Below are positions 2,371-47,100 of a stretch of 64,000 nt of DNA, piece after piece. The position numbers and the translations under genes are program-made. The DNA lies in the IMG/VR virus record IMGVR_UViG_3300035689_000007, positions 1-64,000 of that record. One strand, 5' to 3'. The notes under the pieces were generated by a model that ran no database searches, had not been told where the DNA came from, and was given only the letters and a program-made list of their open reading frames with translations. The first letter of the stretch is position 1, and each line of letters starts with the position of its first letter. The stretch is from a virus.

Positions 2371-4608
2371 ATGTTGGTCAAGAAACGCAGTGGCGAAGTT
2401 GAAGAATACAATGTGGAGAAAATACACAAAGTTTTAGAATGGGCCACTTATGATATAGCTAATGTTTCTTTTTCCGACATAGAGATGAACGCTCACCTAT
2501 CTTTACATGATGGTATAAGTACTAAAGAAATACATCAAATTTTAATTAAATCTGCCAATGATTTAACTTCTAAAACATGTCCTAATTATCAATATGTTGC
2601 CTCTCGTTTATTAAATATGTCTCTTCGTAAAGACCTGTGGGAAAGGCATGATTCTCCACCATCTTTGTATGATCATATATGTAAAAACGCCCAAGAAGAA
2701 GTGTATGATAAAAATCTTTTTACTAAGTGGACGAAGGATGATATAGAAGAAATAGAAAAACACCTAGACCATAATCGAGATTATTTATTTACATATGCCG
2801 GTTTGCAACAAATGATTGACAAATATCTTGTAAAAAATAGGAGTACAGGTAAAATTTATGAAACTCCACAATTTGCCTACATGTGTATAGCACTATCATT
2901 ATTTCACACAGTTTCAGAAGTATTAGAAGCGTATGAATACTTCTCTACACACAAAATAAATCTACCTACACCAATCATGGCCGGTGTAAGAACCAAAATA
3001 AAACAGTTTGCCAGTTGTGTTCTAGTCGATGTAGAGGACGATTTAAACTCTATTTTTGCTAGCGTACACGCTGTTGGTAAGTATACTGCAAGAAGGGCTG
3101 GCATCGGATTAAATATTGGAAGAATTAGACCTATCAATTCTAGTATACGTGGTGGCGAAGTAATACACACGGGCTTAATTCCTTATCTCAAAATATTTGA
3201 ATCCACAGTAAAAGCAACTAGTCAAAATGGTATTCGTGGTGGTTCTGCCACTGTGCATATCCCCTTCTGGCATTACGAGATAGAAGACGTTGTGTCTTTA
3301 AAGAATAATGCCGGAACTGACGATAATAGAGTTAGAAAGCTAGATTATTCTGTGCAATTTAATAAGCTATTCTACGAACGGCTAATTAATAATCAAGATA
3401 TAACTTTAATGAGTCCAGAAGAAACCGATGGACTTTATTCTGCAATGGGTGATGATTATGAAACATTTAAGAGATTATATGAGAAGTATGAAAATCACAG
3501 ATCGATAAAAATAAAAAAGAAAATCAATGCACGAAAACTAGCAGAAATATTTGCTAAAGAAAGACTCGAAACTGGTAGAATATATGTGATGAACATTGAT
3601 AATGCTAACGAACATGGTTCTTGGTCTGTACCAGTTTATATGAGTAATCTATGTCAAGAAATTATACATCCAACAAAGCCTATTCATGATATAGCAGATA
3701 AGGATGGAGAAATTGGAATCTGCATATTATCAGCCTTAAATCTACTAGAACTACACTCCGATCAAGATATTGAAAAGGCTTGTTCTATAACTGTTAAGAC
3801 TTTAGAATCCATTATTGATTATCAAGATTATCCAGTATTAGCTGGGGAAAACTTTACTAAGAATAGGAGATCTCTAGGTATAGGAATTACAAATTTTGCT
3901 GGATATCTAGCTAAAAATAAACTAAAGTATGATGATCCTGCAACTTTAAAGTTTGTACATACAGCTATGGAAAAAATACAATGGTATTTACTTAATGAGT
4001 CGTGCAAACTGGCAGAACAACTAGGACCGTGTAATAAGTTTAACGAAACAAAATATTCTCATAAACTTTTACCTATTGATTGGTACAAAAAAACAGTTGA
4101 CGAGCTAGTCAGTCCAGAGTATACTATGGATTGGGAGGGTTTGCGAAACAGAATAGCACAACACGGTCTGAGACACTCCACTCTTACTGCTATTATGCCA
4201 TGCGAGTCATCTAGTGTGATTCAAAATAGTACAAATGGAATTGAACCTGTGCGTAACTTAATTTCATATAAGAAAGCTAAGAACGGTGTACTTAAACAGT
4301 TAGTTCCAAATTATAGTTCCAGAAAGAATTTTTACACTTTAGCGTGGGAAATGCAAGACAACAAAGCTATATTAAACATTTGTGCTGTATTGCAAAAGTT
4401 TGTTGACATGAGCATTAGCGTAAATCTGTACTATAATTATTCACATTATCAAGATGGAAATATTCCACTAAGTACGTTGATTAAAGATCAAATATACGGT
4501 TATAAATACGGTATCAAAAATTTCTATTACTGTAACACTCCAGATTCTGATGGAGATACAGAAAAAGAATTATCTAACAACTGTGAAAGTGGAGCGTGTG
4601 CAATATGA
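2371..4608 (+). CDS. nrdA: Class Ia ribonucleotide reductase, large (alpha) subunit
   Basis: This subunit reduces ribonucleoside diphosphates to deoxyribonucleotides together with NrdB. At 745 aa it is close to the E. coli enzyme (761 aa). An ATP-cone occupies roughly residues 1-90 (KRSGEVEEYNVEKIHKVL), so dATP feedback is possible. Active-site residues are all in place: redox pair C216 and C451, thiyl Cys428 in the S-N-L-C-Q-E block with N426 and E430, a PCESSS...NGIEP phosphate-binding loop, a Tyr-Tyr radical-transfer pair near the end, and the C-terminal redox tail CESGAC (C738, C743). It looks fully functional. Its stop overlaps the start of the DUF1501 gene (ATGA), giving the unusual order nrdA-DUF1501-nrdB. 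Confidence 0.97.
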   Translation: MLVKKRSGEVEEYNVEKIHKVLEWATYDIANVSFSDIEMNAHLSLHDGISTKEIHQILIKSANDLTSKTCPNYQYVASRLLNMSLRKDLWERHDSPPSLYDHICKNAQEEVYDKNLFTKWTKDDIEEIEKHLDHNRDYLFTYAGLQQMIDKYLVKNRSTGKIYETPQFAYMCIALSLFHTVSEVLEAYEYFSTHKINLPTPIMAGVRTKIKQFASCVLVDVEDDLNSIFASVHAVGKYTARRAGIGLNIGRIRPINSSIRGGEVIHTGLIPYLKIFESTVKATSQNGIRGGSATVHIPFWHYEIEDVVSLKNNAGTDDNRVRKLDYSVQFNKLFYERLINNQDITLMSPEETDGLYSAMGDDYETFKRLYEKYENHRSIKIKKKINARKLAEIFAKERLETGRIYVMNIDNANEHGSWSVPVYMSNLCQEIIHPTKPIHDIADKDGEIGICILSALNLLELHSDQDIEKACSITVKTLESIIDYQDYPVLAGENFTKNRRSLGIGITNFAGYLAKNKLKYDDPATLKFVHTAMEKIQWYLLNESCKLAEQLGPCNKFNETKYSHKLLPIDWYKKTVDELVSPEYTMDWEGLRNRIAQHGLRHSTLTAIMPCESSSVIQNSTNGIEPVRNLISYKKAKNGVLKQLVPNYSSRKNFYTLAWEMQDNKAILNICAVLQKFVDMSISVNLYYNYSHYQDGNIPLSTLIKDQIYGYKYGIKNFYYCNTPDSDGDTEKELSNNCESGACAI

Positions 4609-5849
4609 AACGTAGAAACTTCTTACTATCGACGGGTGTTGCTGGTATAACAGCAACTATGAATAATATCAGTTTTTCTATCAACTATAACAATGATCCA
4701 AAATTTACCTCAAATGATAATAGCGTTATATATCTATATCTTAGCGGTGGACCAACACACATTGAAACATTCAATCCGCTGCCATTAGCTCCATCTGATA
4801 GAAAATCTATTACTGGTAATATACATACCAAAATACCCGGATTTGCAATTGGTGGTATGTGGGATAAAATAGCAAATCAAACAAACAAAATTACGGTAGT
4901 AAATAGTTTCCACCACTCTGATCCAAACCATGAAAGTGCAACACACTGGATGTTAACGGGAGAAAGAACAACTCCAAATAGTCCACCTAAATGGCCTAGT
5001 TTTGGTAGCGTTATTTCTGGACAATATGGAACGAATATAAAAAATGGTCTACCTTCCTATATCAAGTTAAATACAATTCAATACGATGGTGCCGCATGGA
5101 TGGGTACTAAATACATGGGCTATACTGCTAGTAGAGAAGGTGTAGATGATCTGTTTATGAAAAATGAGAAGAAGTTCAAAGATAGAATGAAGATGTTAGA
5201 GGTACTTGAAAAGCATAGCCCAATACCGGATGATCGTAATGCTAACGCTTGGCTTGAATTAAGAAGTCAGGCTGTAGACGTATTAGTAGGAAAAGCTAGT
5301 GAAGCTTTCCTAATAGAAAAAGATAAAGACTTTGCTAACTACAAAGATAGCCAACTTGGCAAAGATATGCTTACTGCTATTAGACTTATAGAGGCCGGTG
5401 TAAAATTTGTTACAATTAATTACGGCGGATGGGATATGCATGATAACATACTAAACGGTCTAAAAAGTAAAGTACCGGCATTAGATCATGTATTGTCCAT
5501 GTACTTTAATTCAGCGGAGCAAAGAAATATCAACTATAAAAATCTATTAGTAATGAGTGGTGACTTTGGAAGAACTCCAAAAATCAATAAAGATGCTGGT
5601 AGAGATCATTGGCCGCATCTAGTTCCACTATTACTAGCTTGTGATACATATGAAATGAATAGAGTAATTGGTGCCTCTGATAGTAATGGAGAAAGGCCAG
5701 TAGACCATCCATTTGAACCAGAAGATTTAAAATGGACTATTTTAGAGCATATGGGTGTAAATAAAGATGCAGATTGGTATAGCATAGAAAATAGGCCAAT
5801 GATGTTCGTACAAGAAAACGCAAAAAATATTCTGAGGTATTCAATATAA
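4605..5849 (+). CDS. DUF1501 family protein with Tat signal
   Basis: The start is ATG 4605 (ATGA overlap with nrdA); an upstream in-frame GTG lies inside nrdA and is unlikely. The protein begins MKRRNFLLSTGVAGITA, a twin-arginine signal (K-R-R-N-F-L plus hydrophobic core), so it should be exported folded. Family landmarks follow: YLSGGPTHIETFNPLP near residue 45, GGWDMHDN in the middle, SGDFGRTPKINK...GRDHWPH and the closing DHPFEPEDLKWTILEHMG. DUF1501 belongs to the alkaline-phosphatase/sulfatase-like group of uncharacterised secreted proteins, very numerous in Planctomycetota. Length (414 aa) is normal and no key block is missing. It ends 1 bp before nrdB. Its role in a phage is unknown; host-envelope or extracellular sulfate/phosphate chemistry is only a guess. 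Confidence 0.9.
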   Translation: MKRRNFLLSTGVAGITATMNNISFSINYNNDPKFTSNDNSVIYLYLSGGPTHIETFNPLPLAPSDRKSITGNIHTKIPGFAIGGMWDKIANQTNKITVVNSFHHSDPNHESATHWMLTGERTTPNSPPKWPSFGSVISGQYGTNIKNGLPSYIKLNTIQYDGAAWMGTKYMGYTASREGVDDLFMKNEKKFKDRMKMLEVLEKHSPIPDDRNANAWLELRSQAVDVLVGKASEAFLIEKDKDFANYKDSQLGKDMLTAIRLIEAGVKFVTINYGGWDMHDNILNGLKSKVPALDHVLSMYFNSAEQRNINYKNLLVMSGDFGRTPKINKDAGRDHWPHLVPLLLACDTYEMNRVIGASDSNGERPVDHPFEPEDLKWTILEHMGVNKDADWYSIENRPMMFVQENAKNILRYSI

Positions 5850-5850
5850 T

Positions 5851-6930
5851 ATGCAAACAATACTAAATAAAAAGAACGTCAATTATCTAAATCAACCTAT
5901 ATTTTTAGGTGAAGATCTATCATTACAGCGATATGATAAGTTTAAATATCCTGTCTTTTTTGATCTATATAAGAAACAGCTAGAATTTTTCTGGAGGCCA
6001 GAAGAAATAGAATTAAAAAAGGATCGAAACGATTTTAAGAATGACAGTATTATGAGTCCAAACGAAAGATTCATTTTTACGTCGAATCTAAAATATCAAA
6101 CAATGATGGATTCTGTGATATGTCGTGGAGTTCCAACTTTAGTAAATTATGTTTCTAATCCAGAATTAGAAGCATGTATGAACGTGTGGCAATTTTTTGA
6201 GCAAATCCATAGTTATAGTTATACGTATATCATCAAAAATGTGTATAGCGATCCTAGCGAGATTCTAGATAGTTGTCTTACCGATAAAGAGATCTTAAAA
6301 AGGGCAGATGTAGCAATTAAGGAGTATAATGCTCTTAGGGAGCTTGGTAATTCCACAAAGAAAAAAGATCTTAAAAAACAGATATACTTAACCTTAATTA
6401 GTGTAAATATATTAGAAGCAATTCGTTTTTATGTCTCATTTATTTGTGCGTTTGCCTTTGCGGAAAATAAAAAGATGATAGGCAATGCAGATATCATCAA
6501 ACTTATTAAGAGAGATGAGGCTTTGCATCTATATAATACCCAAGAAATAATTAAGATTTTGAGGACTGTTCCAGAAGAAGGTTTTGTCGAAATAGCTTCC
6601 GAGTGCGAAGAGGAGGCTTGTAAAATGTTTGATTCTGCTGCTGCGGAAGAAAAAGCTTGGTCACAGTACCTGTTTAAAGATGGCTCAATTATAGGATTAA
6701 ATGACAGGGTAATGTGTGAATATATAGATTGGTTGTGCATGACTAGGCGTAAGAATATAGGATTGCCATACGAAAAAGGATATAAAAATCCAATAGCTGG
6801 ATGGACTGATCCTTGGATGAATAGTGAATCTGTACAAGTTGCACCACAAGAACATGAAATTACTTCATATAAAATTGGTGCTAGTAAGAACGATTTAGAA
6901 GAAGTTGACTTAGGAGGTTTTAGTCTATGA
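5851..6930 (+). CDS. nrdB: Class Ia ribonucleotide reductase, small (beta) subunit
   Basis: This is the di-iron tyrosyl-radical subunit partnering NrdA. Metal ligands align with the E. coli protein: D87, E117 and H120 (in FFEQIHSYSY), E189, E223 and H226 (RDEALH). The radical Tyr is Y124, four residues after the histidine. The C-terminal tail (EEVDLGGFSL) is the acidic/hydrophobic peptide that docks on the alpha subunit. At 359 aa it is of normal length. The start is the ATG 1 bp after the DUF1501 stop, and its own stop overlaps the dUTPase start (ATGA). Translation of the operon is therefore probably coupled. Confidence 0.97.
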   Translation: MQTILNKKNVNYLNQPIFLGEDLSLQRYDKFKYPVFFDLYKKQLEFFWRPEEIELKKDRNDFKNDSIMSPNERFIFTSNLKYQTMMDSVICRGVPTLVNYVSNPELEACMNVWQFFEQIHSYSYTYIIKNVYSDPSEILDSCLTDKEILKRADVAIKEYNALRELGNSTKKKDLKKQIYLTLISVNILEAIRFYVSFICAFAFAENKKMIGNADIIKLIKRDEALHLYNTQEIIKILRTVPEEGFVEIASECEEEACKMFDSAAAEEKAWSQYLFKDGSIIGLNDRVMCEYIDWLCMTRRKNIGLPYEKGYKNPIAGWTDPWMNSESVQVAPQEHEITSYKIGASKNDLEEVDLGGFSL

Positions 6931-11911: not shown

Positions 11912-12309
11912 GTATGGAAGAATTTATAAAGACGTTAAGCGAAGAACAAAAGCAAGCTTTGTTAAAAGCTTTAAGTGATAATAAGCCCACGACAGAGCAA
12001 AGTGAACAAACAACAATAAAGAAACATATTAGCAACAGTCAAAGTCAAAATTTTATCACAGAAACAAAACCTAAGATACAAAATCAACAAAGGAGAGAGC
12101 CAGTGAGAGGAAGGGGAAATGAATGGGTTGATACTGGAGAGGGTAGAGATATTTTTACTCCAGAAACAGAAAGAACTCCTAGGAAAAGACCGCCACCAGT
12201 AAAACAAATGGTAGAATGTCACGCCTGTGGAAAAACATTTAAAGCAGACAAGAGATTTATTTATGGAGAATATGTCCGATGCGATAGGTGTGTGGGGAAA
12301 AAGCGATAA
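11908..12309 (+). CDS. Zinc-ribbon protein with disordered linker
   Basis: It has three parts: an N-terminal short amphipathic helix (EEFIKTLSEEQKQALLKAL), a long polar linker of about 70 residues rich in Gln, Pro, Arg and Thr, and a C-terminal zinc ribbon with C104/C107 and C125/C128. Proteins of this build often act as adaptors, using the helix to bind a partner and the ribbon to bind nucleic acid. It directly precedes the replicative helicase, sharing its stop with the helicase start (TAATG). It could be a helicase loader or primosome adaptor; this is inferred from position only. Confidence 0.65.
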   Translation: MSMEEFIKTLSEEQKQALLKALSDNKPTTEQSEQTTIKKHISNSQSQNFITETKPKIQNQQRREPVRGRGNEWVDTGEGRDIFTPETERTPRKRPPPVKQMVECHACGKTFKADKRFIYGEYVRCDRCVGKKR

Positions 12310-13784
12310 TGGAAGAAAAACTAATTGATGTTGGGTCTGAACGTGCAGTGTTGGCTGGGCTTATACAACACGGATTAGATGGACATATTACAGTATGTGA
12401 CTTGATATCTCAGGATACGTTTGGTAATCATAATAACCAAATGTTATATAGGTGTATTGAACATATTCTTCACAAAGAACAAAAAATAGATATACCTTCT
12501 CTTCTCGCTGCCGCAGAGGTTCTACATTATTCAGAAACTATAAATACTACTCAAGAACTAAAGTATATTAAATCGTTGTTTGATTTTCCAATCAGTATAG
12601 AAAATATACTAAGTTTTACAATACAGCTAAAGAAGTTTGAATTTGCCAGAAAGATAAAAAAGTTAACCGCTAAAATTCATAAAGATGTAGATAAGGTAAC
12701 TGGCAATGAGAGCATCAATGAAATTGTTCAAATCTTAGAAAGTCCAGTAACAGATTTTCTTAGAGAAGAAGATAACAGTGGAGAAACTCCAGCTAAAATT
12801 GGATCTAACATAAATGAGTATATAGATTTTCTAATAGAGAACAAGTGCGATATAATTGGTATACCAACAGGCTTTAGTAGATATGATCAAGCAATTGGTG
12901 GTGGACTACGCAGAAAGTGTGTAGACTTAGTATCTGCAAGACCTAAAGTGGGTAAATCTGTTTTTGCTGATAATGTTGCTTTGAATATTACATCTCTTGG
13001 CATTCCGGTTCTAGTGCTAGATACGGAGATGTCCAAAGAAGATCATCTTAATAGATTGTTAGCTAATATTAGCGGCATACCAATAAATGATATTGCAACT
13101 GGAAAATTTTCTGAGGATGAAGATAAACACAGAAAAATACAACAGGCTATGGCAACCCTAGAAAAGGTTCCATATAGTTACATTAGTGTTGCTGGTAAAC
13201 CGTTTGAGTCAATCTTAAACTTAATCCGTAGATGGGTTGTACAAGAAGTTAAAACTGATGAAACTGGTAAAACGAATGATTGCGTAATAATTTATGATTA
13301 TTTGAAGTTGATGTCTTCCGAGTCTATAACTAATAATATACAAGAATATCAAGCTCTTGGATTTCAAATAACATCTTTACATAATCTATGTGTTAAATTG
13401 GATATACCATGTCTATCATTTGTTCAGTTGAATAGAGATGGCATTACTAAAGAAAGTACAGACGCTGTTAGCGGTTCTGATAGATTAATTTGGCTATGTA
13501 CATCATTTACTATATTCAAAGCAAAATCTCCAGAAGAACTAGCAGAAGATGGTCCTAATGCTGGCAATAGAAAGTTAGTCCCAATTGTAACAAGGCATGG
13601 TGCTGGACTAAACGACGGAGACTATATTAATATGCAAATGGTCGGTTCTCATGCTAAATTATTAGAATTGAGAACTAGAAATGAATTTAAAAATCAACCA
13701 GTTGGTGATACCGGACTAGTAGCAAAAGAAGCTATGGATAAAATCAAAAATGAACTTACAGACGATCAAGAATCAACTGAATAA
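12309..13784 (+). CDS. dnaB: Replicative DNA helicase, DnaB family
   Basis: ATG 12309 overlaps the preceding stop; an in-frame GTG 21 bp upstream is less likely. At 491 aa it has both DnaB domains: an N-terminal helical domain (ERAVLAGLIQHG, then F-x-x-x-x-N-Q-M-L-Y) and a RecA-like C-terminal motor. Motor motifs include Walker A RPKVGKS (K216), DTEMSKEDHLNRLLA for the arginine-rich helicase motif 1a region, and Walker B CVIIYDYLKLM. The VQLNRDG sensor and SGSDRLIWLCT segments are also typical. It should unwind the phage fork 5'-3' and pair with the primase encoded immediately after it. Confidence 0.93.
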   Translation: MEEKLIDVGSERAVLAGLIQHGLDGHITVCDLISQDTFGNHNNQMLYRCIEHILHKEQKIDIPSLLAAAEVLHYSETINTTQELKYIKSLFDFPISIENILSFTIQLKKFEFARKIKKLTAKIHKDVDKVTGNESINEIVQILESPVTDFLREEDNSGETPAKIGSNINEYIDFLIENKCDIIGIPTGFSRYDQAIGGGLRRKCVDLVSARPKVGKSVFADNVALNITSLGIPVLVLDTEMSKEDHLNRLLANISGIPINDIATGKFSEDEDKHRKIQQAMATLEKVPYSYISVAGKPFESILNLIRRWVVQEVKTDETGKTNDCVIIYDYLKLMSSESITNNIQEYQALGFQITSLHNLCVKLDIPCLSFVQLNRDGITKESTDAVSGSDRLIWLCTSFTIFKAKSPEELAEDGPNAGNRKLVPIVTRHGAGLNDGDYINMQMVGSHAKLLELRTRNEFKNQPVGDTGLVAKEAMDKIKNELTDDQESTE

Positions 13785-14778
13785 TAATATTGAAAAAGTG
13801 TTGACAAAGTTAGATATTGACTATGAATTATTTTCAGAAAATATCTATTCAATATGTCCAATTCATCAAGACAGTGATAATCCAAGAGCATTTTCTTTTT
13901 CTAGAAATAAAGGAATTTGGAAGTGTTGGACTAGAGACTGTCAAAATGAACATGGTAATGATATATTTGGTCTAATAAAAGGTGTCTTATCACAACAAAA
14001 GAATCAACCAATAGACTTTTCAGATGTTCTAAAATGGTCTAAAAATCTATTAGAAATCAATGGAAGCGTTAGGATAGAACATAAAACAGAAGAAGTAGAA
14101 GAAGATCAATTTGTACAATTAGTCAACAATATAAATAAATTTCATTCAAAAGTTCAGAACACTAAAACGCCGTCTATTAAGATTGACTTTGAGTTACATA
14201 ACTCGTCTGAATATTTTATAGACCGTGGATTTGATAAAAAAACGTTAGATCATTTTGGTGTGAAAGATTGTGAGCAAAGCGGTATAATGAAAGATAGAGC
14301 AATCATACCAATTCATGATGATCTTGGAAGAAATATTATTGGCTTAATTGGAAGATCTACAAAAGAATATCGTACACCTAAGTTCATAATATACCCCAAG
14401 GGTTTTGACAAAAGAAACTATTTTTACAACTATCATAGAGCAATAGAAAAAGCAAAAGAAACTTCATGTCTATATATATTAGAAGGTCAAGGTGATGTTT
14501 GGAAAATGTACGAAGCTGGAGTAATAAACGCTGTCAGTATTTTTGGTAAAACTTTAACAGAACAACAGATAGATAAATTATTAAAGTTACCGATAACGCA
14601 CTTAATCATCTTAACAGATAATGATCAGTCTGGTAAAGAATCAAAAGTACAAATAAAACGTCAACTAGGCAGAATATACAAATTGTCATTTCCCAAAATT
14701 ACAGAAAAGGACATTGGAGATATGACAATAGAAAAAATACAAACATCCATTTTGTCAAATATGAAAGGAACATATTGA
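13750..14778 (+). CDS. dnaG: DNA primase, DnaG type (short)
   Basis: It contains a CHC2 zinc finger (C36, H39, C59, C64) and a Toprim catalytic domain with LEGQGD (E245) and LTDNDQSGK (D290, D292). It therefore should synthesise RNA primers on single-stranded DNA. At 342 aa it lacks the C-terminal helicase-binding domain of bacterial DnaG, as is common in phages. The RNA-polymerase-like N part of the core between the finger and Toprim is compact. It overlaps the helicase gene by 35 bp in another frame, so the pair is co-expressed; there is no clear Shine-Dalgarno at ATG 13750, and coupled re-initiation is likely. Confidence 0.9.
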   Translation: MNLQTIKNQLNNNIEKVLTKLDIDYELFSENIYSICPIHQDSDNPRAFSFSRNKGIWKCWTRDCQNEHGNDIFGLIKGVLSQQKNQPIDFSDVLKWSKNLLEINGSVRIEHKTEEVEEDQFVQLVNNINKFHSKVQNTKTPSIKIDFELHNSSEYFIDRGFDKKTLDHFGVKDCEQSGIMKDRAIIPIHDDLGRNIIGLIGRSTKEYRTPKFIIYPKGFDKRNYFYNYHRAIEKAKETSCLYILEGQGDVWKMYEAGVINAVSIFGKTLTEQQIDKLLKLPITHLIILTDNDQSGKESKVQIKRQLGRIYKLSFPKITEKDIGDMTIEKIQTSILSNMKGTY

Positions 14779-15524
14779 TGGCTAAAATAATAGCTATATC
14801 TGGAAGAAAACAGTCTGGTAAAAATACTGTAGCTAATTTTATTACTGGGTCTATTCTGAAAAATAAGGGTATGATCCAAGATTTCAATATAAATAATGAT
14901 GGTAATCTTGAGATAAAAACTACCAATTCTAAAAATGAAGTTGGTTGGGGCGTACTAGATTTAATGAGAAAAGATGAAATTTTTATTAACTATGCAGAAA
15001 ATGAATTGTGGCCGCACGTAAAAATCTATCACTTTGCTGATCCACTAAAAGAGATTTGCACAAATCTATTTAATATAGATACAAAAACTGTTTATGGTAA
15101 TGATAAACAAAAAAATAACAAAATCAATCTTAACTGGGAAGATATGCCAGAAAATCATGATAGTAAAAAGGGACGCATGACTGCTAGAGAATTCATGCAA
15201 CATTTTGGCACAAATATATTAAGAAAAATGAAAGACGACATTTGGGTACAAGCTACAATCACTAGAATATTTGGTGAAAATTCAGAAATTGCTATTATAC
15301 CAGATGTCAGATTTCCAAATGAAATAGAAGCAATTAAAGACAATGGCGGAACTGTTATCAGACTTACAAGAAATGTATTCAACGATCCACACCATTGTGA
15401 GAGTATTCTAGATAAAAATGTGTATGATTGGTCAAACTTTGATTATGTAATAGAGAATCATGGTGTATCTGTCAAAGATTTGACATGCGAGTTGAACAAA
15501 ATTAATAACCTCTGGAACATATAA
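14778..15524 (+). CDS. Deoxynucleoside monophosphate kinase-like P-loop protein
   Basis: It begins with a strand and Walker A G9RKQSGKN16, as in phage dNMP kinases (T4 gp1-like). Later blocks fit the family: HFADPLKEIC near residue 90, TAREFMQHFGT near 135, and PDVRFPNEIEAI (about 180), followed by V-I-R-L-T-R-N. The reaction would be phosphorylation of dNMPs to dNDPs, feeding the RNR/dUTPase pathway. ATG 14778 shares a base with the primase stop (TGATG). The length (248 aa) matches T4 gp1 (241 aa). Substrate specificity cannot be read from sequence. Confidence 0.82.
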   Translation: MAKIIAISGRKQSGKNTVANFITGSILKNKGMIQDFNINNDGNLEIKTTNSKNEVGWGVLDLMRKDEIFINYAENELWPHVKIYHFADPLKEICTNLFNIDTKTVYGNDKQKNNKINLNWEDMPENHDSKKGRMTAREFMQHFGTNILRKMKDDIWVQATITRIFGENSEIAIIPDVRFPNEIEAIKDNGGTVIRLTRNVFNDPHHCESILDKNVYDWSNFDYVIENHGVSVKDLTCELNKINNLWNI

Positions 15525-17413: not shown

Positions 17414-18403
17414 ATGCCCCTTCCAAACAGAAATAAAGATGAAAAAAGAGACGATTTTGTTGCTAGATGTATGCAAAACGACACAATGAAAAGTGAATAT
17501 CCAGATCAAGCTCAAAGAGTAGCTATATGTATTAGGCAGGCTACCGCTGATTGTAGCATGATAGAAGCAGCAGACTTCGAATTACAAATGGAATCTGGAT
17601 ATGAAGAAGAATTGACAGAAGATAATTTCTACATACCCGTAGCAGCAGAATATGTAGATTTTGGAGAAACAGCAGAAGAATGGGATTGTGCTAAAGAACG
17701 TCCCGGATTGTGGGAGAATATTAGAAAGAAAAAGGAAAGAGAAGGTAAAAACTATAAGCCAGCAAAGCCGGGAGATCCAGATAGACCAGATAAAGACGCT
17801 TGGAAAAAAGCCCAATCCGATAGCGGAAACGAAATGGCTATTGAACAACTACAAAAAATGCATGATCAATTAATGGGAGTTGTCATGAAATTAAAACTTA
17901 TGGAAGTTGAATTTCAAGATTGGACAAAAGATATGATTTCTAAAGCAGAAGTATATATTCAAAATGTCTTTGATTTTGTTACATATTATGAACCCGGAAA
18001 ATATGAAGACGAATATGTAGAGGAACCATCAGAAATAGAAGATGAGGAAACAGAATCTAAATATCAATATGAAGATCCAGTTACTAGAGAAGTATTTACA
18101 TATACGCAGAGAAAAACATACAAAAAAGATGGCAAGACTTTAATCTATCTAGGTGAAGCTAGTGAATATCAAGGTAGAAAGGTACAACTAAATAAGCCAT
18201 TTAGAACACCAAAGGGTCCAAAAAAGTTTAGCGTATACGTTAAGAACGAAAAGGGTAATGTGGTCAAGGTAAATTTTGGTGATCCAAATATGAAAATAAA
18301 GAAAAATATACCGGAACGAAGAAAAAGCTTTAGAGCAAGACACAATTGTGATAATCCCGGCCCCAAGTGGAAGGCTAGATATTGGTCATGCAAAGCTTGG
18401 TAA
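17414..18403 (+). CDS. Phage protein with conserved N- and C-terminal motifs (possible virion/head-associated)
   Basis: A strong AAGGAG precedes ATG 17414. The N-terminus (PLPNRNKDEKRDDFVARCM, then YPDQAQRVAICIRQA) is a short helical module that recurs at the start of many phage head or capsid-associated proteins. The middle is acidic and carries a RPGLWENIRKKK block with Lys/Pro-rich continuation. The last ~70 residues (KKFSVYVKNEKGNVVKVNFG, then RRKSFRARHNC and ARYWSCKAW) form a second recurrent phage module with two Cys. The function of both modules is uncharacterised as far as I know. At 329 aa with long acidic linkers it looks like an adaptor or structural protein rather than an enzyme. 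Confidence 0.65.
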   Translation: MPLPNRNKDEKRDDFVARCMQNDTMKSEYPDQAQRVAICIRQATADCSMIEAADFELQMESGYEEELTEDNFYIPVAAEYVDFGETAEEWDCAKERPGLWENIRKKKEREGKNYKPAKPGDPDRPDKDAWKKAQSDSGNEMAIEQLQKMHDQLMGVVMKLKLMEVEFQDWTKDMISKAEVYIQNVFDFVTYYEPGKYEDEYVEEPSEIEDEETESKYQYEDPVTREVFTYTQRKTYKKDGKTLIYLGEASEYQGRKVQLNKPFRTPKGPKKFSVYVKNEKGNVVKVNFGDPNMKIKKNIPERRKSFRARHNCDNPGPKWKARYWSCKAW

Positions 18404-18739: not shown

Positions 18740-18744
18740 AGGAG
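18740..18744 (+). promoter_or_regulatory. Ribosome binding site for the TTG start of dnaE-N
   Basis: AGGAG lies 9 bp before TTG 18754. There is no in-frame ATG near the protein's conserved beginning, so the TTG start is the best choice. Confidence 0.55.
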
Positions 18745-18753
18745 AAATATACA

Positions 18754-20346
18754 TTGAATTGGTTTCCACTTAAAAACTTGACACATTACAGTTTGTTAAA
18801 AGCGTTTTCTAAGCCAAAAGAATTAGCATCTCTATGTGCTAAGTTCGATTATCCAGCCTGTGGAATATGTGATTATAAATCTATATCTGGTGCAGTGTCG
18901 TTTTTTCAAGCTTGTAAAAATGTTGGTATAAAACCAATTATTGGCTGCACGTTTGATAATAACACCGTGTTTGCAAAAAATAAAAATGGATGGCTGGATC
19001 TAATTACTCTTGTATCTTCAATGGATGATAACGGTCAAATACCAAATGACATCGTTCAAGATATCAACGATAGAAAAAATCTTATATATGTAAATGAGAT
19101 CGGCATTAACAATAGTTTTTATACTAAACCGGAACATGCGAACTTACACAGAGTATTATTATGCTCAGAATTAAAGACTACACTTCCAAAGATTCAAAAG
19201 CAGGTTCGTAAAGGAGAATTATCTGAAGATATATCAGACTACTTTAAAAGTGATAATAAGCATATTGTTCCACAAAAAGTATGCAAGAAATTACAAGAAG
19301 TTTATAACACATGCGAGGATTATGACATTCTTAGTAAGCCAATTTTACCAAAGTTTGAGTGTCCAAATAATTTATCCGAAGAGGAATATCTTAAAACGTT
19401 GGCTAGGAATGGATGGAGAGAATTGCTAATTAACACTGGCAAGGTAAAAGACAGTCATAACAAAGATATCTATCTAAAAAGATTTAACCTAGAACTAGAA
19501 GTAATTAAAAATGCAAACTTGTTCGGATATTTTCTCATAGTACAAGATATTATGAACTATGTCCAAAAAATGGGATGGATGATAGGACCGGGAAGAGGTT
19601 CTGCCGCAGGGTGTTTAATATCATACCTTATAGGTATAACACAAATAGATCCAGTAGAATATGATTTATTGTTTGAAAGGTTCTATAATGCTGGCAGAAA
19701 TTCAGATGATCATATATCATTACCAGATATAGATATGGATGTGCCAGCACAAAAAAGAGATTCTGTAATACAGTACTTAAAAGAAAAATATGGACATCAA
19801 CATGTAAGTCAAATGATCACTTTTGGAAGATTGCAGGGAAGAAGTGCCATCAAAGAAGTATTACGAATTAATGAGGCTTGTTCTTTTGCTGAGATGAATG
19901 CTATCACAAAGAGTGTTCCAAATGAAGCAGAAATTTCAGATCAGCTTGCAGAGATGGATGATGAAGATCGATCAATTATCAAGTGGTCACTAATAAATAG
20001 ATCTAAAGAATTACAAGATTTCTGTTATCTAGATGATAATGGAGCATTGCAGGGACAATATTCTGAATTTTTTCAACAAGCAATAGAAATAGAAGGGACA
20101 TTTAAAACACAAGGCAAACACGCTGCCGGGGTTGTTATATCAGCAAATCCTCTGAATGGTGTATGCCCAATGGTTAAACCAAAACATGGTACAGAAAAGG
20201 TGGCTGGACTAGAAATGTCGGACTTAGAGGCTTTAGGTCATGTTAAGTTTGATGTTCTTGGGATTAATCTGTTAGATAAGTTGATGAAAATTAAAGACAT
20301 AACAATGAACGATACTAACAAAGCATCGGAGACAATATATGGCTAA
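18754..20346 (+). CDS. dnaE: DNA polymerase III alpha subunit, N-terminal half (PHP remnant plus palm)
   Basis: This 530-aa half carries a reduced PHP domain (residues ~1-140) and the polymerase palm. The palm is intact: the G-P-G-R-G-S-A-A-G loop near residue 280, catalytic L-P-D325-I-D327-M-D329, and the third carboxylate in H-V-K-F-D500-V-L-G. The PHP metal site looks dead: the usual HxH at the start is reduced to THYSLLKA, and D-H has become CDYKS, so no intrinsic PHP activity is expected. The reading frame stops 30 residues after D500, in the linker before the fingers. The matching fingers/C-terminal half is encoded at 22034. The start is TTG with AGGAG 9 bp upstream. Confidence 0.93.
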   Translation: MNWFPLKNLTHYSLLKAFSKPKELASLCAKFDYPACGICDYKSISGAVSFFQACKNVGIKPIIGCTFDNNTVFAKNKNGWLDLITLVSSMDDNGQIPNDIVQDINDRKNLIYVNEIGINNSFYTKPEHANLHRVLLCSELKTTLPKIQKQVRKGELSEDISDYFKSDNKHIVPQKVCKKLQEVYNTCEDYDILSKPILPKFECPNNLSEEEYLKTLARNGWRELLINTGKVKDSHNKDIYLKRFNLELEVIKNANLFGYFLIVQDIMNYVQKMGWMIGPGRGSAAGCLISYLIGITQIDPVEYDLLFERFYNAGRNSDDHISLPDIDMDVPAQKRDSVIQYLKEKYGHQHVSQMITFGRLQGRSAIKEVLRINEACSFAEMNAITKSVPNEAEISDQLAEMDDEDRSIIKWSLINRSKELQDFCYLDDNGALQGQYSEFFQQAIEIEGTFKTQGKHAAGVVISANPLNGVCPMVKPKHGTEKVAGLEMSDLEALGHVKFDVLGINLLDKLMKIKDITMNDTNKASETIYG

Positions 20347-21019
20347 TAGAGACTATATCATTTTTGACTTTGAAACCGGATCTAGAAATCCACACAAAAC
20401 TCAACCAACCCAAATTGCCGCAATAGCACTAGATGGAAGAAATTTTTCAGTCAAAGGTACTTTTAATAGTGAAATATGTCCAATTTTTGATGAAGAAGAA
20501 GCAATAAAACTTGGATTAGATCCAGTAGAAGATGAAGCTCTCAAAATAACACATAAAACAAAAGAACAGCTAGAACAAGCTCCAGATGTAAAATCTGTTT
20601 GGAAAAAATTTGCTAAGTTCGTAGAACAATACAATTGGAAAAATGATCCATTTTTTAATCCTGTTCCAGTAGGATTCAATATTATTGGGTTTGACATGAT
20701 TATTGTGAATAGGTTGTGTCAAGAATATGGCCCTTGGGACAAACAAAAAAACGTACAGAAAATATTTAGTAAAGTCTATAAGATAGATATTATGGATATG
20801 ATATTTTCTTGGACTGAGGGCGATCCAAGCATAAGATCAATAAGTATGGATTCTTTAAGAGACATTATGGGATTATCAAAAGATAATGCACATGACGCAT
20901 TACAAGACGTAAAAGATTCAGCAAATATCTTCATTAAGATGATGAAAACCCATAGAGCGGTTTATAGAAATATAGAATTTGAACAAGCTTTTGCTAATGG
21001 AAATTTATATGTCAAATAA
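20339..21019 (+). CDS. DEDDh 3'-5' exonuclease (DnaQ-like)
   Basis: All DEDDh motifs are present: Exo I I-F-D10-F-E12-T-G, Exo II V-G-F-N-I-I-G-F-D119, and Exo III H185-D-A-L-Q-D190. At 226 aa it is a single exonuclease domain like DnaQ or RNase T. It starts 8 bp inside the end of the polymerase N-half and so probably serves as the proofreading subunit acting in trans, which fits the apparent loss of the PHP site. It lies between the two polymerase halves, before the glycosyltransferase and HNH genes. Confidence 0.88.
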   Translation: MANRDYIIFDFETGSRNPHKTQPTQIAAIALDGRNFSVKGTFNSEICPIFDEEEAIKLGLDPVEDEALKITHKTKEQLEQAPDVKSVWKKFAKFVEQYNWKNDPFFNPVPVGFNIIGFDMIIVNRLCQEYGPWDKQKNVQKIFSKVYKIDIMDMIFSWTEGDPSIRSISMDSLRDIMGLSKDNAHDALQDVKDSANIFIKMMKTHRAVYRNIEFEQAFANGNLYVK

Positions 21020-21692
21020 TATAGTAGCTTTTAGTAATTACGATAATAACTTTTCGGCTGTTAACAGTATAACATATCCACACAATAAAACATACTTTGA
21101 TAAGCATGACATAGAATATATTGTGTTTAATAACAGCGCAATAAATATGATTAAAACATCTAGTCAACATGTAACTAAGTGCTATTATATTAAGTGGTTA
21201 TTACTTCAACACATGCTAGAAACAAGGTATGATGTTGATTATTTTTTTGCTATAGATACAGATATAATCATATGTGACTTTGATATAGATTTAAGGCTTT
21301 TTACTAAGCTATCGAATAGGGATATTTTGTTGTGTTCTGTAGAAGACTGTTCGCCAAATATGTTTTGGAATATAAATGCTGGATCTATGATTGTAAAAAA
21401 TAGCGATGCTGTTAAATCTTTCATACGTGCATATTTAGAGATAGCAAAATTGTACGACTATAATATTATTGACCAAGTACTATTGCAGGGATTTATAGAT
21501 AAAAAGCCAGAATACAGACATCTATTTGCTATATTTCCATCTTGCACATTTAATCACGGTGGAGTTGATTCATTCTTATATCACGATTGTAGCATTAGTA
21601 CATCTAATAGATCTTTAGAAGAATGTATAGCAACAAAGACACGCAATTTAAAAACCGCTATTAATAAACTAACCAATAAACATGAACAATAA
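21009..21692 (+). CDS. Glycosyltransferase, GT-A type
   Basis: ATG 21009 overlaps the exonuclease stop. The protein (227 aa) has a nucleotide-binding DxD (D83-T-D85 in YFFAIDTDIIICDF) and the N-A-G-S-M-I-V-K-N-S-D block followed by D-Q-V-L-L. These are features of galactosyltransferase/GMA12-like GT-A enzymes that use UDP- or GDP-sugars. No membrane segment is present. It is one of three genes separating the polymerase halves and has no obvious link to replication. Either it was carried in together with the HNH gene or it modifies phage DNA or virion. Confidence 0.75.
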   Translation: MSNNIVAFSNYDNNFSAVNSITYPHNKTYFDKHDIEYIVFNNSAINMIKTSSQHVTKCYYIKWLLLQHMLETRYDVDYFFAIDTDIIICDFDIDLRLFTKLSNRDILLCSVEDCSPNMFWNINAGSMIVKNSDAVKSFIRAYLEIAKLYDYNIIDQVLLQGFIDKKPEYRHLFAIFPSCTFNHGGVDSFLYHDCSISTSNRSLEECIATKTRNLKTAINKLTNKHEQ

Positions 21693-22056
21693 ACAAACAA
21701 TACAACATAGAAAAAAATGGATAGATACATATAAAATATCCAGAGGTTGCGATATTTGTGGCTACAATAAGCATCCAGCCAGTTTATGTTTTGATCATTT
21801 GCCTAATTTTGAGAAAGCAGAAATAACTAAAAACGGATGTTCAAAAAGAAGTTGTGCTGGTGGTATGTTTATGATGTATGGTAAAAAATACGATGTTGAA
21901 GAGTTGATTTCTGAGATCAAAAAATGTAGAATACTGTGTCACAATTGCCACATGGAGTGTACCCATAAAAAAAACATACATCTCAATATTATTCCAGAAA
22001 TGACAGTTGAAGATTTATTCACAAAGTTGAGAAATGAAAACTATGAAATACAATGA
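21682..22056 (+). CDS. HNH endonuclease
   Basis: The 124-aa protein holds a zinc pair C23-x2-C26 (GCDICGY), a F-D38-H39 catalytic-type motif, and the closing C86-H-N-C89-H. This is the standard HNH/zinc arrangement of small phage and homing nucleases. The first ten residues are basic. It overlaps the glycosyltransferase by 11 bp and the polymerase C-half by 23 bp, so its 3' end contains the start of the second polymerase gene. A freestanding homing endonuclease that invaded and helped split dnaE is the most natural reading. Confidence 0.85.
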   Translation: MNNKQTIQHRKKWIDTYKISRGCDICGYNKHPASLCFDHLPNFEKAEITKNGCSKRSCAGGMFMMYGKKYDVEELISEIKKCRILCHNCHMECTHKKNIHLNIIPEMTVEDLFTKLRNENYEIQ

Positions 22057-23602
22057 TGATAAAACATGGCAGCTATTTGCAGAAGGCAAAACTAAGGGAA
22101 TCTTTCAATTAGAAAGCAACCTTGGAAAGTCTTGGTCTAAAAAGTTGGCCCCAACAAACATAGAAGAATTATCTGCTTTAATTGCTATTATTAGACCGGG
22201 ATGTTTAAAAGCATATGTAGATGGAAAATCTATGACACAACATTTCGTAGATAGAAAACACGGAAGAGAAGAGATAACATATCTTCATCCATCGCTAGAA
22301 GAAGTGTTGAAAACAACATATGGCGTTCTAGTATATCAAGAACAATCTATGCGTATAGCACAAAAAATAGCTGGATTTGATTTACAAGAAGCAGATATGT
22401 TAAGAAAAGCCATAGGAAAGAAGAAGGCTGATCTTATGGCTAAAGTGAAAAAGTCTTTTATAGAGGGTGCTGCAAAGGTTAATATAGTTACTAAAGAAGA
22501 GGCAGAAGAAATATTCGGCTGGATAGAAAAATCTTCAAGATACGCTTTTAATAAGTCTCATAGCATTTCATACGCCGTGTGTTCATATTGGAGTGCTTAT
22601 CATAAAGCTCATTTTACCAAAGAGTTTTTTCTTTCTTATTTATACTACGCTCATGAAAAACAAGACCCACATCAAGAAATATATGAATTAGTTTCTGAAG
22701 CTAAAATATTTGATATACAGACTAAAACTCCTAGTGTTAAAAACTTTGCTGAAAAATTCAACATAAAGCATAACAAAATCTATTTTGGATTAAAGGATAT
22801 CAAATCTTTGAGTGGAAAAAATGGAGACGCAATAATAGAAATTATTGGCGAAATACAAAAAGAACACAAGAAAAAAATTCATGAGTTTACTTGGTTAGAA
22901 ATATTATTATTTATGTCTCCAAGAATCAATTCTACAGCATTCAAGGCTTTAGTATCTATTGGATTCTTTAGAGATTTAAAAGATCAAGTAACAAGAAACA
23001 AAGCTTTATATGACTTTGAAATCATAAAAACTCTAACTAAAGCAGAGTTTAATTGGGTACAACAAAATTATCATACTAATAAGTGGGAAGATTTAATATC
23101 ATGTTTAAGATCTTTAGCACCGACAAAGAAAAATGGGGGAGGAACGCACAGTGAGGATAGAAAACAGTCTATAGAAAATGAAATCAACTTATTAATTAAT
23201 CCTCCGTATGATTTAGAAGATGATCCAAACTGGATTATTGATCAAGAAACTAAATTCTTAGGATGTCCCGTCAGCATGACTAAGATAGAAATATCAGACA
23301 CATCATCCGCAAATACTTACTGTAAAGATATTGTTAATGGAAAACGTGGTAAAGATTTGTGCATTGTGGGTAATATAGTTAAGTTGTCAGACTATAAAAT
23401 CAAGAAAGGTGAATCAAAAGACAAATTAATGTCATTTTTGACTATTGAAGACGAAACTTGTATTCTAGATAGTGTAATAGTTTTCCCAAAAGTTAAAGAA
23501 AAATATAAGTATATCCTATACGAAGGTAATAATTTACTTTTTTGCGGCTCTGTAAGCGGACAAGATAATGCTTTCATAGTTGATAAAATTCATGAAATTT
23601 AG
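22034..23602 (+). CDS. dnaE: DNA polymerase III alpha subunit, C-terminal half (fingers and tail)
   Basis: The 522-aa product picks up where the N-half stops: D-D-K-T-W-Q-L-F-A-E-G-K-T-K-G-I-F-Q-L-E-S matches the start of the DnaE fingers. It continues with I-I-R-P-G, V-Y-Q-E-Q-S-M, the R-K-A-I-G-K-K-K motif and F-N-K-S-H-S-I-S-Y-A, the block where cyanobacterial DnaE inteins sit; here it is uninterrupted. The last ~110 residues resemble an OB domain. Starts at ATG 22034 or 22043 are both possible inside the HNH gene. Together the halves total about 1050 aa, a shortened but complete DnaE, presumably reassembled as two polypeptides. Confidence 0.93.
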   Translation: MKTMKYNDDKTWQLFAEGKTKGIFQLESNLGKSWSKKLAPTNIEELSALIAIIRPGCLKAYVDGKSMTQHFVDRKHGREEITYLHPSLEEVLKTTYGVLVYQEQSMRIAQKIAGFDLQEADMLRKAIGKKKADLMAKVKKSFIEGAAKVNIVTKEEAEEIFGWIEKSSRYAFNKSHSISYAVCSYWSAYHKAHFTKEFFLSYLYYAHEKQDPHQEIYELVSEAKIFDIQTKTPSVKNFAEKFNIKHNKIYFGLKDIKSLSGKNGDAIIEIIGEIQKEHKKKIHEFTWLEILLFMSPRINSTAFKALVSIGFFRDLKDQVTRNKALYDFEIIKTLTKAEFNWVQQNYHTNKWEDLISCLRSLAPTKKNGGGTHSEDRKQSIENEINLLINPPYDLEDDPNWIIDQETKFLGCPVSMTKIEISDTSSANTYCKDIVNGKRGKDLCIVGNIVKLSDYKIKKGESKDKLMSFLTIEDETCILDSVIVFPKVKEKYKYILYEGNNLLFCGSVSGQDNAFIVDKIHEI

Positions 23603-23649: not shown

Positions 23650-23973
23650 ATGAATAATTGTTGTTTTACTGGCTATTTAGTTGATAATCCTAATACTTCT
23701 GTGGTAAACGATGTTGTATTAGCAGAATTTACAATAGTGGTATATACTTATCGTAGAACTAAAAGTACTGGAGAAAAAAGTAGAATTCCAACATATATAA
23801 AGTGTGAAGCTTGGCATACTGGGGCAGAAACTATAGAACGGTTTGCTACGAAAGGTACTAAAATCAGTATACAAGCATCTGCTAAAAATCCGTCAAAAAA
23901 TAGTGATGATATAATTTTTAGAGTTAATGAATTCGATTTATGTGACACAGAAGACTTTGAGGATTGTATATGA
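23650..23973 (+). CDS. ssb: Single-stranded DNA-binding protein
   Basis: The 107-aa OB-fold protein opens with C-F-T-G-Y-L-V-D-N-P and continues with F-T-I-V-V, I-K-C-E-A-W and E-R-F-A-T-K-G-T-K-I-S-I-Q, the classical SSB pattern. The last residues (DTEDFEDCI) form an acidic tail ending in a hydrophobic residue, like the SSB tip that recruits partner proteins. AGGAG precedes the ATG by 6 bp. It directly follows the polymerase C-half, completing the replisome set. The linker between fold and tail is very short. Confidence 0.88.
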   Translation: MNNCCFTGYLVDNPNTSVVNDVVLAEFTIVVYTYRRTKSTGEKSRIPTYIKCEAWHTGAETIERFATKGTKISIQASAKNPSKNSDDIIFRVNEFDLCDTEDFEDCI

Positions 23974-44135: not shown

Positions 44136-47100
44136 TTATAGACTTCCTCTTGTCCTAAGTTGTAGTATCGTGTCCGTTTTGGCTATACCACTACTATATA
44201 ATTCCATTACTCCAGATGGAGAAGCTAAACCACTAGCTATTAGTGGCATATTGCCAGAAGATTGTAATAAATTGAATGTATACAAATCCATCATATTATA
44301 CACATTATTGCTTTCTGGACCATAATTCACTAGTGATAAAGAGCCAGAAACAAATGGTGGAGCGCCATCTACAAATAGATTTATATCTTCATATACAGGC
44401 GTTCCATGTAAAAATGATCCACGAATATGTTCAATATACGGTCTATGTACAACATAACCGCGAGGAACCTTATCTTGTCCAGACGCCTCTATAAATATTT
44501 CTCCATTAATATTTGATAATACAATTCCATTAAATAATACCTTTTGATCAAAATTATTGTCATTCTTAAATGTAAATGTTGTATAATCACTTGGTTTTTG
44601 ATATTCTCCATAAACTCTACCAGCAATAAATGTGTCTGGATGAGAGAATGCTGGCCTGAGACTTCTTAACATTCCGTCGAAAGCATATGTTGAACCAATA
44701 TTATCAAATACATTTCCACTAGTTGAGAATGGATGGTTCATAGCCCCAACTGCTAGTATATAGTCTCCATCGACTCTTCTAGCTCTATCTATTGCTATAG
44801 CGTTTCCAAAGAATGTATTTTCTCCAGAGTTTTGAATTCTAGCATATGGACCTTGTGCCACAAGTTTGTGTATGGGAGTCCACTCTTGAGTTTTAGAACC
44901 CCAATTATTAATTTTGTTTTCATATGTAAATACAGCGCCGTGATTAAACACTACAGTTCCACTAGCTCCATATTGTTCTCTTTCGGAGGGGATTGCTAGA
45001 TCATGTATTATTCGTTGTTGAATATCAAATTGCTCATTAAATTCTTTTCTTATGAACGGCGCTGGCGTGTCTTCTGAATAGTTTTCAAACCTATGGCAAG
45101 GAGCAGATATAGCTAATATATCTCCATTTAGAGCTATGTCATATCCAAACATATCTGATACGAACGCTAGATTCTTTAATTTATCATTAGAATAATTATT
45201 GTTACCAATAACTGTAGAAGAGTTGGATGTTGTTAATCCGCTAAAACCAACACTTATTTCTTCTGGTCTAAACTTTCTTGTTACCGTCCAAGGTATTCCA
45301 GTTGTTTTTTGCTTAGACAGATTTACAGAACCAAGACCACTTCCAACATTTCCAACCTTTTCAATTAAATATACTGCGCCAGCACCGCCGTTGAATCCTA
45401 CTTCTTTGCCATGCTGCATACCGCTAGCAATAATAGTAGACCAAGGAGTAATTTCTTCCGTATTGTATGGTGAGAATGGAGCGCCAACATATACTTTGTC
45501 TTTATGTATCTTTACAGAATATCCAAATAAATCTCCGGGATATCCAGAATAAAATACATCTAAGTCTAAATGATCTTTTCCGATAGCTCTTAGTATTGGT
45601 GGAATTCTACTATAAATTCCAGCGTCTCTATAGAGAGTTCCATTATATGTATCTTGTATTTTAGATGTAGATCCGTAGTGTTGTTCAACTATGTTAAAAT
45701 TATCTATATACCAAGCTTGTCTTAGTGCCGCTTTTTCTTCTTCAGTATATGGTGGAGGTGGAGATAATTCAATTCTAAAGTGTCCGATATCGCTATTGAA
45801 TAATGGCAACATTGGATCAGTTGGTTGTGGCGGTTTTTTACCGGCTATTTCTATTTTACCTTCTAAATCACTATATTTTGTAGCTGGTAAGCTGTTACTT
45901 GTAAATTGACCAAAGCGATAATTTAATCCACTGTTTTCTGGATAAGCATTAACTAATCTACTTGGACTTGATCTTTCTGGTGATATAATCTTAAATGCTG
46001 TTTCATATTGTCTTCCAGATCTTGTTGTATTAAAATTAGTATTTGGATATAGACTTGCTAGGAACCAAGCTAGATTTGGATTAATAGTATTTCCACCTTC
46101 GGACAGAATTGTTCTACCTTGTATTAAACTGGGATCACTTATAACTGTAATTCTAGATTTATTATATCCATTGAAATATCCACCTTGATGATAAACTGTC
46201 TGCGCCATAACTACTGGGCCGTCAGCAATATCAACACCCGGTGTGCCATATCCTTCTGGAGGATCATTTGAACATATACGATTATTTGATATGCAATATT
46301 TAGAGCTATCTGTACTAATTTCTCTATTAAATAATTGTGTATACGAAGTATCTGGTGTGCCGGGAATGGTAACTACTTCTGTTTCATAAATAGGCCACCT
46401 AGCTGTAGAAATAATAGTATTTGATGGTATTCTAACACCAGAAACGCTCAACAGTCTAACAGTTCGTAATTGTTTTGGATTTTGTTGTAATGGATAGCTA
46501 GCAGAATGCGTAAAATACATATCTAGTGTTTCTTGACCAGATGGAATTTGTACATATAGGTCAAGACTATCGTATAATTCTTTTGTATATCCGGCAGACA
46601 CATAAGTTTGTTTAACGTTATTATTTTCATCAGTATCAACTAAAAGTATATTTCTTCCTACTGGTCCAATTGGTTGATTAAGAACCGACGTATTTACAAA
46701 CTCTGAAGCCAAACAATTTCCAACAACTAAATTAATTGGAGAAATTTCTAAAGAACTTTCTTTCAAAATATTGAATCTTAACTTGAATAAGTTATAGTCA
46801 TCATGCTCTTCAAGTTTTTCTGGAACTGTAAACGATACTTTAGTTATGCCAGTATTAAATTTTGGAACTCCGATAGAAAATTGTTCTGTGTCTGTAACTG
46901 GAGCGTCAAAAAAAGCTAAATTAATAGCATTCCTATTATTAATAGGAACAAATTCATGTGTAAATCCGTTTGGTACTGGGTACGGTGGACGATCTGAATA
47001 TGGAACTGTAACAGCGCCATCTCCATATCCGACATAAGAATTACTACTTGCAAAAGAAGAATTTTCGTCTAGCCCATCATATAAATATGTGTTTGCGGCA

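Follow-up and report, generated by a model that had tools for sequence, protein, structure and literature searches.

What becomes of a replicative DNA polymerase whose gene lies in two pieces, and what broke the gene? The question is raised by a stretch of 64,000 nucleotides (hereafter, the window), which is part of the 78,634-base uncultivated phage record IMGVR_UViG_3300035689_000007 and encodes the N-terminal half (polN) and the C-terminal half (polC) of a DNA polymerase III alpha subunit as separate genes, with genes for a 3'-5' exonuclease (exo), a putative glycosyltransferase (GT) and a free-standing HNH endonuclease between them. To our knowledge, the alpha subunit of bacteria is essentially always one chain. 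An earlier sequence-only reading of the window had proposed that invasion by the HNH gene split an intact dnaE at an interdomain linker and that the pieces reassemble as a two-subunit polymerase, possibly with the exonuclease as third partner. Our results favor, with a probability that we put at roughly 85%, a reading that keeps the two-subunit enzyme and drops the proposed cause of the split. That is, polN and polC would be the separately translated, non-covalently assembled chains of one C-family alpha with exo as its proofreader, the split would be ancestral, and the other intervening genes would be late cargo.

The domain content of the two halves is complementary. PolN matches the PHP and DNA_pol3_alpha domains (Pfam, 1.7e-69), and polC matches DNA_pol3_finger (Pfam, 1.9e-50), together with HHH_6 slightly below the cut-off, while the remainder of polC aligns with DnaE models to near the C-terminal OB region. 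The catalytic carboxylates had been placed in the first half, and the alignment with E. coli DnaE agrees: D325, D327 and D329 of the PDIDMD motif match the aspartates of E. coli PDFDVD, and D500 aligns with the aspartate of KFDFLG. Thus, the features that define a C-family DnaE (a pol-beta-like palm, three aspartates, fingers and a PHP domain) are found in polN and polC jointly and in neither alone. Relative to E. coli alpha (PDB), the polN alignment ends at residue 563 and that of polC begins at residue 591, and relative to the one-piece NCBIfam DnaE model PRK05673.1 (1146 positions) the corresponding values are 573 and 585; therefore, the break falls in the short, variable linker that joins the palm to the fingers, as the sequence-only reading had it. 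Its narrower statement that polC begins exactly at the fingers holds to within about 20 residues but is not exact, these residues being poorly conserved linker. Each half also has its own start as claimed, a TTG preceded by AGGAG at 18740-18744 for polN and the ATG at 22034 for polC (a second in-frame ATG is found at 22043).

The arrangement is not peculiar to the window. Five scans, four over viral contigs and one over GTDB contigs, provided 280 loci with all three of polN, exo and polC (163 non-redundant by polC; 131 clusters at 90% identity), two of them on phage-like contigs in metagenome-assembled genomes (MAGs) and the rest on viral contigs. Even with polC identities down to about 39%, the gene order is polN-exo-polC in 280/280 loci and a continuous polN-polC reading frame is found in 0/280, that is, the single polypeptide typical of DnaE is encoded by none of them. 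In 29 non-redundant loci exo is the sole gene between the halves; the gaps at its junctions do not exceed 60 nt, and 8-nt overlaps are frequent. One IMG/VR contig with a different dataset number (L002) carries the whole locus at 99-100% identity to the window, and another (L082) has the same sequence for polN, exo and part of GT. The possibility of a recent frameshift or an assembly error, which had been raised together with the original proposal, is ruled out by these two contigs and, more generally, because hundreds of relatives keep the arrangement. No unsplit phage relative was found among the 280 loci from these five scans, and the nearest unsplit genes are those of cellular DnaE, at about 30-42% identity. 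Among the cellular DnaE of GTDB contigs, 76 of 78 open reading frames (ORFs) consist of a single frame; the remaining two are continuous across the linker and break elsewhere. In isolated phages (INPHARED), the nearest matches fall below about 32% identity across the greater part of a half, and single genes predominate among those inspected, the exceptions being Corynebacterium phage P1201 and Cellulophaga phage phi13:1, discussed below. On the reading favored here, the split is an ancestral trait of these phages that has become fixed throughout the lineage.

As for the lineage itself, the terminase of one relative reached only about 26% identity to Bacillus phages when we attempted an assignment. 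Separately, two lineage contigs (L305 and L306) were binned in MAGs of Flavobacteriales and Lokiarchaeota, conflicting taxa that probably reflect either binning contamination or hints of the host.

Could the HNH gene have caused the split, with exo and GT arriving with it or later? Free-standing homing endonucleases are known to split phage genes, as mobE did with nrdA of phage Aeh1 (PMC2988022), and the HNH gene of the window abuts the start of polC. If its insertion explained the break, however, relatives without it should be unsplit, and HNH-free relatives are instead split at the same point of the linker, including those in which exo alone separates the halves. Further, the exo-polC junction, and not the polN end, is where nucleases are located, and it carries three unrelated types of them among the 163 non-redundant loci: HNH (5 loci), endonuclease VII (25 loci; Pfam, 1.7e-14) and HNH_3 (3 loci). 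When these states were mapped by Fitch parsimony on a FastTree phylogeny (126 representatives, with cellular DnaE as the outgroup), the inferred root state was no nuclease, the window-type HNH appeared as five separate tip gains in five taxa, and endonuclease VII and HNH_3 required 14 and two changes, respectively. Since the split exists without HNH in relatives, unrelated nucleases are scattered over the tree and none is reconstructed at its root, HNH most likely invaded an operon that was already split, and we consider the insertion an improbable cause. The sequence-only reading had named the same split without an HNH gene as the observation that would speak against it, and this is what we found, although the absence of HNH from a deeper ancestor is not proven by it.

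The three intervening genes, which had been viewed as one unit, also appear to have different histories. Exo behaves as an ancient resident of the split operon, whereas GT, which occurs at this site in few relatives only (L098, L100), and HNH look like independent late cargo; the nucleases in general would be passengers. The sporadic distribution of HNH fits homing, and we refer to it as a putative homing endonuclease. The polN-exo junction has variable cargo as well, including FkbM methyltransferases, members of a uracil-DNA glycosylase family and possible nucleases. At the same junction, about 33-46 loci of sister clades, but not the window's clade, have a small conserved ORF (about 59-87 aa, no Pfam match; for instance, L050:8079-8312).

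An origin without any mobile element can be proposed instead. In a tandem duplication of an exo-dnaE pair, the first dnaE copy would lose its 3' half and the second its 5' half, and loss of the first exo would then leave polN-exo-polC, a single mechanism that covers both the split and the position of exo. The family of exo (PHROG 192) also comprises exonucleases whose genes directly precede an intact dnaE in Pseudomonas phage LBL3, Serratia phage SMP and Vibrio phage VA-RY-3, and this shared adjacency suggests, without showing, such an origin. As the hypothesis predicts, exo stays beside polC even in the loci with polN displaced by 6 kb (L045, L053). On the other hand, no intermediate was found (tandem copies or remnants), the stem to cellular DnaE is long, and membership in the same PHROG is no proof of orthology because exo is short and fast evolving. 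We regard duplication followed by complementary loss as a tentative but reasonable possibility that falls short of even odds, and one that is compatible with the two-chain reading favored here.

Split genes are often pseudogenes, and it is conceivable that the split dnaE is a decayed relic in phages replicated by the polymerase of the host, for which the lack of a recognized phage clamp (see below) might also be cited. The data on selection speak strongly against this. In ten close pairs, used because the wide alignment was saturated, the ratio of nonsynonymous to synonymous substitution rates (dN/dS) was 0.018-0.074 for polN and 0.016-0.065 for polC; that is, both halves are under purifying selection. 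Moreover, the catalytic residues are invariant and both halves are retained in every relative. In every one of thirty large records, which are fragments or of unknown completeness so that an absence in them is not proof, the palm and the fingers were each matched exactly once and polymerases of families A and B (DNA_pol_A, DNA_pol_B) not at all, which leaves the split enzyme as the only recognizable polymerase of these records. Hence, a relic is hardly credible, and the view of the sequence-only reading that both halves are functional looks sound. The conservation and the selection also agree with two polypeptides that would assemble into an active enzyme. Inter-sequence distances of polN and polC correlate as well (r = 0.92; 0/2000 permutations), a weak argument on its own since such correlation is expected for linked genes. 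AlphaFold2 models of the separate halves have high predicted local distance difference test (pLDDT) values (90.0 for polN and 90.7 for polC) and match the same solved DnaE chains, with the C-terminal tail of polN (521-530) disordered. A Shine-Dalgarno-like motif was found ahead of polN in 116/162 loci, of exo in 129/156 and of polC in 49/143, compared to 237/1630 for random ATGs. These counts fit separate translation of the halves, in which polC may be coupled in part to the preceding gene.

A gene in two pieces could still yield one alpha if the products were rejoined after transcription or translation (e.g., by an intron, a split intein, a frameshift or bypass). Cyanobacterial DnaE is the precedent, and some relatives carry a split intein elsewhere in polN. 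At the break itself, however, the evidence points the other way: polC has its own start, the polN tails and polC heads of the junctions listed have no IntN or IntC residues, no protein of the window matched an intein, and Rfam revealed no intron in the window, a permissive scan of the junctions giving chance matches only. In addition, given the 8-nt overlaps of polN with exo and of exo with polC in compact relatives, any removal would have to be limited to the coding sequence of exo. We consequently judge rejoining very improbable.

The inteins just mentioned interrupt polN after GPGRG, with the N and C parts in separate ORFs, in L138 (9829-10252), L139 (7802-9000, corresponding to L140) and L199 (about 5790-6240). 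The N part begins at C1 with CFLPDT (CFVPET in L199) and the C part ends with GVHN, followed by SAAG; Hint was matched weakly (E 6.5e-4, below cut-off), but the matches start at the predicted splice residue, and the two intein parts of L139 flank an endonuclease-like ORF with a DUF7487/TnsA-like match. In these phages alpha would be encoded in three pieces, with one junction protein-spliced and the other left open. Other variants were also observed. In L141 (10065-10355), about 290 bp and a frame change interrupt polN just before PDIDMD, for which a second split, an insertion or an error are candidates, and in L157 (4300-4500) polN lacks the PDIDMD stretch and continues in another frame, with an internal deletion or an assembly error as candidates. 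Among deeper branches (L045, L046, L053, L054, L074), polC has an N-terminal extension of about 25-55 residues in which an F-x-CGC-x-F motif, a possible metal-binding site, is conserved.

With respect to proofreading, exo is a DEDDh (DnaQ-like) exonuclease by its residues, as D10, E12, D119, H185 and D190 are invariant in 11 divergent members. The HxH and DHG metal-ligand motifs of the PHP domain are both absent in 100/163 loci, including the window's clade; yet exo cannot be explained solely as a substitute for an inactive PHP domain, because both motifs are intact in 58/163 relatives that have exo too. Most likely, exo is to this polymerase what epsilon is to bacterial alpha, a proofreader acting in trans. 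The suggestion that exo is a third partner is thus supported as likely, through its DEDDh residues and the PHROG 192 neighbors of intact dnaE.

Taken together, the replicative polymerase of these phages would be an alpha of the bacterial type (C-family, DnaE) that is divided over two polypeptides, polN providing the PHP domain, palm, thumb and catalytic carboxylates, and polC the fingers, helix-hairpin-helix and OB parts. Each half would be translated from its own start within one operon, polN-exo-polC-ssb, fold independently and join the other non-covalently through the palm/fingers interface, which is intramolecular in bacterial alpha. Exo would act in trans as the proofreader and the single-strand binding protein would come from the same operon, while HNH, endonuclease VII, GT and methyltransferase genes would have been added later, repeatedly, at the two junctions of the operon. 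Several points weigh against this model. A bacterial-type beta clamp was not found in 15 large records, leaving processivity unexplained, although the clamp may be the host's or unrecognized; the relatives with intact PHP ligand motifs have exo nonetheless; all records of the lineage are metagenomic, from uncultivated phages; and a nuclease inserted in a deeper ancestor and since lost could have caused the original split, even if nothing points there. Further, while the split, its conservation, the selection, the single copy and the late HNH come from direct comparison of the genomes, we infer the binding of polN to polC, the polymerase activity of the pair and the partnership with exo. A bolder version, in which alpha-N, exo and alpha-C form an obligate three-gene replicase of duplication/complementary-loss origin, free of any mobile element and with halves exchangeable between related phages, is rather unlikely in our view. 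It is in this context that one pair of relatives (L012 and L111) should be mentioned, whose dS is 0.21 for polN and 2.2 for polC; the contrast indicates different histories of the halves and suggests that the exonuclease/nuclease junction has been a site of recombination or of subunit exchange.

The genes from polN to polC are five ORFs on one strand with overlapping ends (Table 1), the three inserted genes being where the sequence-only reading had located them. Exo overlaps polN by 8 nt and is preceded by GGAG at 20328-20331, and the 3' end of HNH overlaps the start of polC by 23 nt. For GT, the listed ATG start is likelier than an alternative TTG at 20979; its identity is weak (24.3 bits vs. 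a cut-off of 23), and that of HNH has support from PHROGs only (1.5e-13). The gene for the single-strand binding protein neighbors polC in most relatives too. Elsewhere in the window, a DUF1501 protein gene without PHROG match (4596-5849) lies between the genes for the large and small subunits of ribonucleotide reductase, and two giant ORFs stand back to back on the minus strand (44136-56126, 3996 aa; 56136-63833, 2565 aa).

Table 1. Genes of the split polymerase locus and of its replication neighborhood in the window
Feature	Position	Strand	Basis or remark
polN, 530-aa N-terminal half of Pol III alpha with PHP, palm and thumb	18754-20346	+	Pfam, alignments, model
exo, DEDDh (DnaQ-like) 3'-5' exonuclease	20339-21019	+	RNase_T, PHROG 192
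GT, putative glycosyltransferase	21009-21692	+	Pfam Glyco_transf_34, weak
HNH, free-standing endonuclease	21682-22056	+	PHROG 2255/3106
polC, 522-aa C-terminal half of Pol III alpha with fingers, helix-hairpin-helix and OB	22034-23602	+	
Single-strand binding protein (OB/SSB)	23650-23973	+	directly 3' of polC
Conserved upstream gene, no assigned function	17414-18403	+	kept before polN in the window's own clade
DnaB-type replicative helicase	12288-13784	+	same replication gene block
Primase	13750-14778		same block as the helicase
Deoxynucleoside monophosphate (dNMP) kinase	14775-15524		same block as the helicase

In conclusion, a large group of uncultivated bacterial viruses appears to make its only recognizable DNA polymerase as two proteins, with an exonuclease gene between their genes. 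Split polymerases of two chains are already known; what is new is a C-family replicase split lineage-wide with exo as the constant insert, an arrangement for which we found no description in the open-access literature (subscription journals and preprints were not covered). A lineage with a fully split DnaE as its only recognized polymerase represents a natural two-piece C-family replicase in which the palm/fingers interface, the proofreading partnership and subunit exchange can be studied. It also offers a clear comparative case of a homing-type endonuclease beside a split gene as passenger rather than cause, a question that had stayed unresolved for gene 43 of Aeromonas phage 25.

Among the systems to compare, the Pol III core of bacteria likewise pairs a DnaE chain (alpha) with a separate DEDDh proofreader (epsilon), but its alpha is one chain. 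Cyanobacterial DnaE is encoded by two genes as well, its parts being rejoined by a split intein and its break located at the FNKSH motif within the fingers, whereas here the break precedes the fingers and has no intein. In Corynebacterium phage P1201, gp59/gp58 (L233) are annotated as a DnaE of two overlapping ORFs, divided at the same palm/fingers linker; there is no exonuclease between them, and the relative Stickynote is unsplit. Either a real parallel split or a sequencing frameshift is possible. Two adjacent dnaE ORFs also occur in an isolated phage of the Cbastvirus group, Cellulophaga phage phi13:1/phiST, with the break of phi13:1 (L148) in a different place, before PDIDTD inside the palm, and with extra sequence on both new ends. 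Group 2.2 jumbo phages, similar to the phages described here, have a C-family alpha of two proteins predicted to reconstitute the enzyme, but theirs is a minimal alpha without other Pol III domains, its halves are distantly encoded and a family B polymerase is present alongside (PMC7824862), as opposed to the PHP and C-terminal domains, the single operon and the family B polymerase in 0/30 records found here. Further parallels are the split gene 43 of Aeromonas phages 25 and 44RR (gp43A/gp43B) and nrdA of Aeh1, which share with the present case a replication enzyme of two polypeptides and a homing-type endonuclease near the split. For phage 25, gp43A and gp43B co-purify with active polymerase, and the endonuclease perhaps invaded a gene that was already split (PMC2988022). 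Those enzymes are a B-family polymerase and a ribonucleotide reductase, however, while the present one is a C-family DnaE that is split throughout a very diverse lineage and has a proofreading exonuclease gene as its constant insert. The best reading is that polN and polC function like gp43A and gp43B and yet, judging by their distribution, would not be the product of a homing endonuclease.

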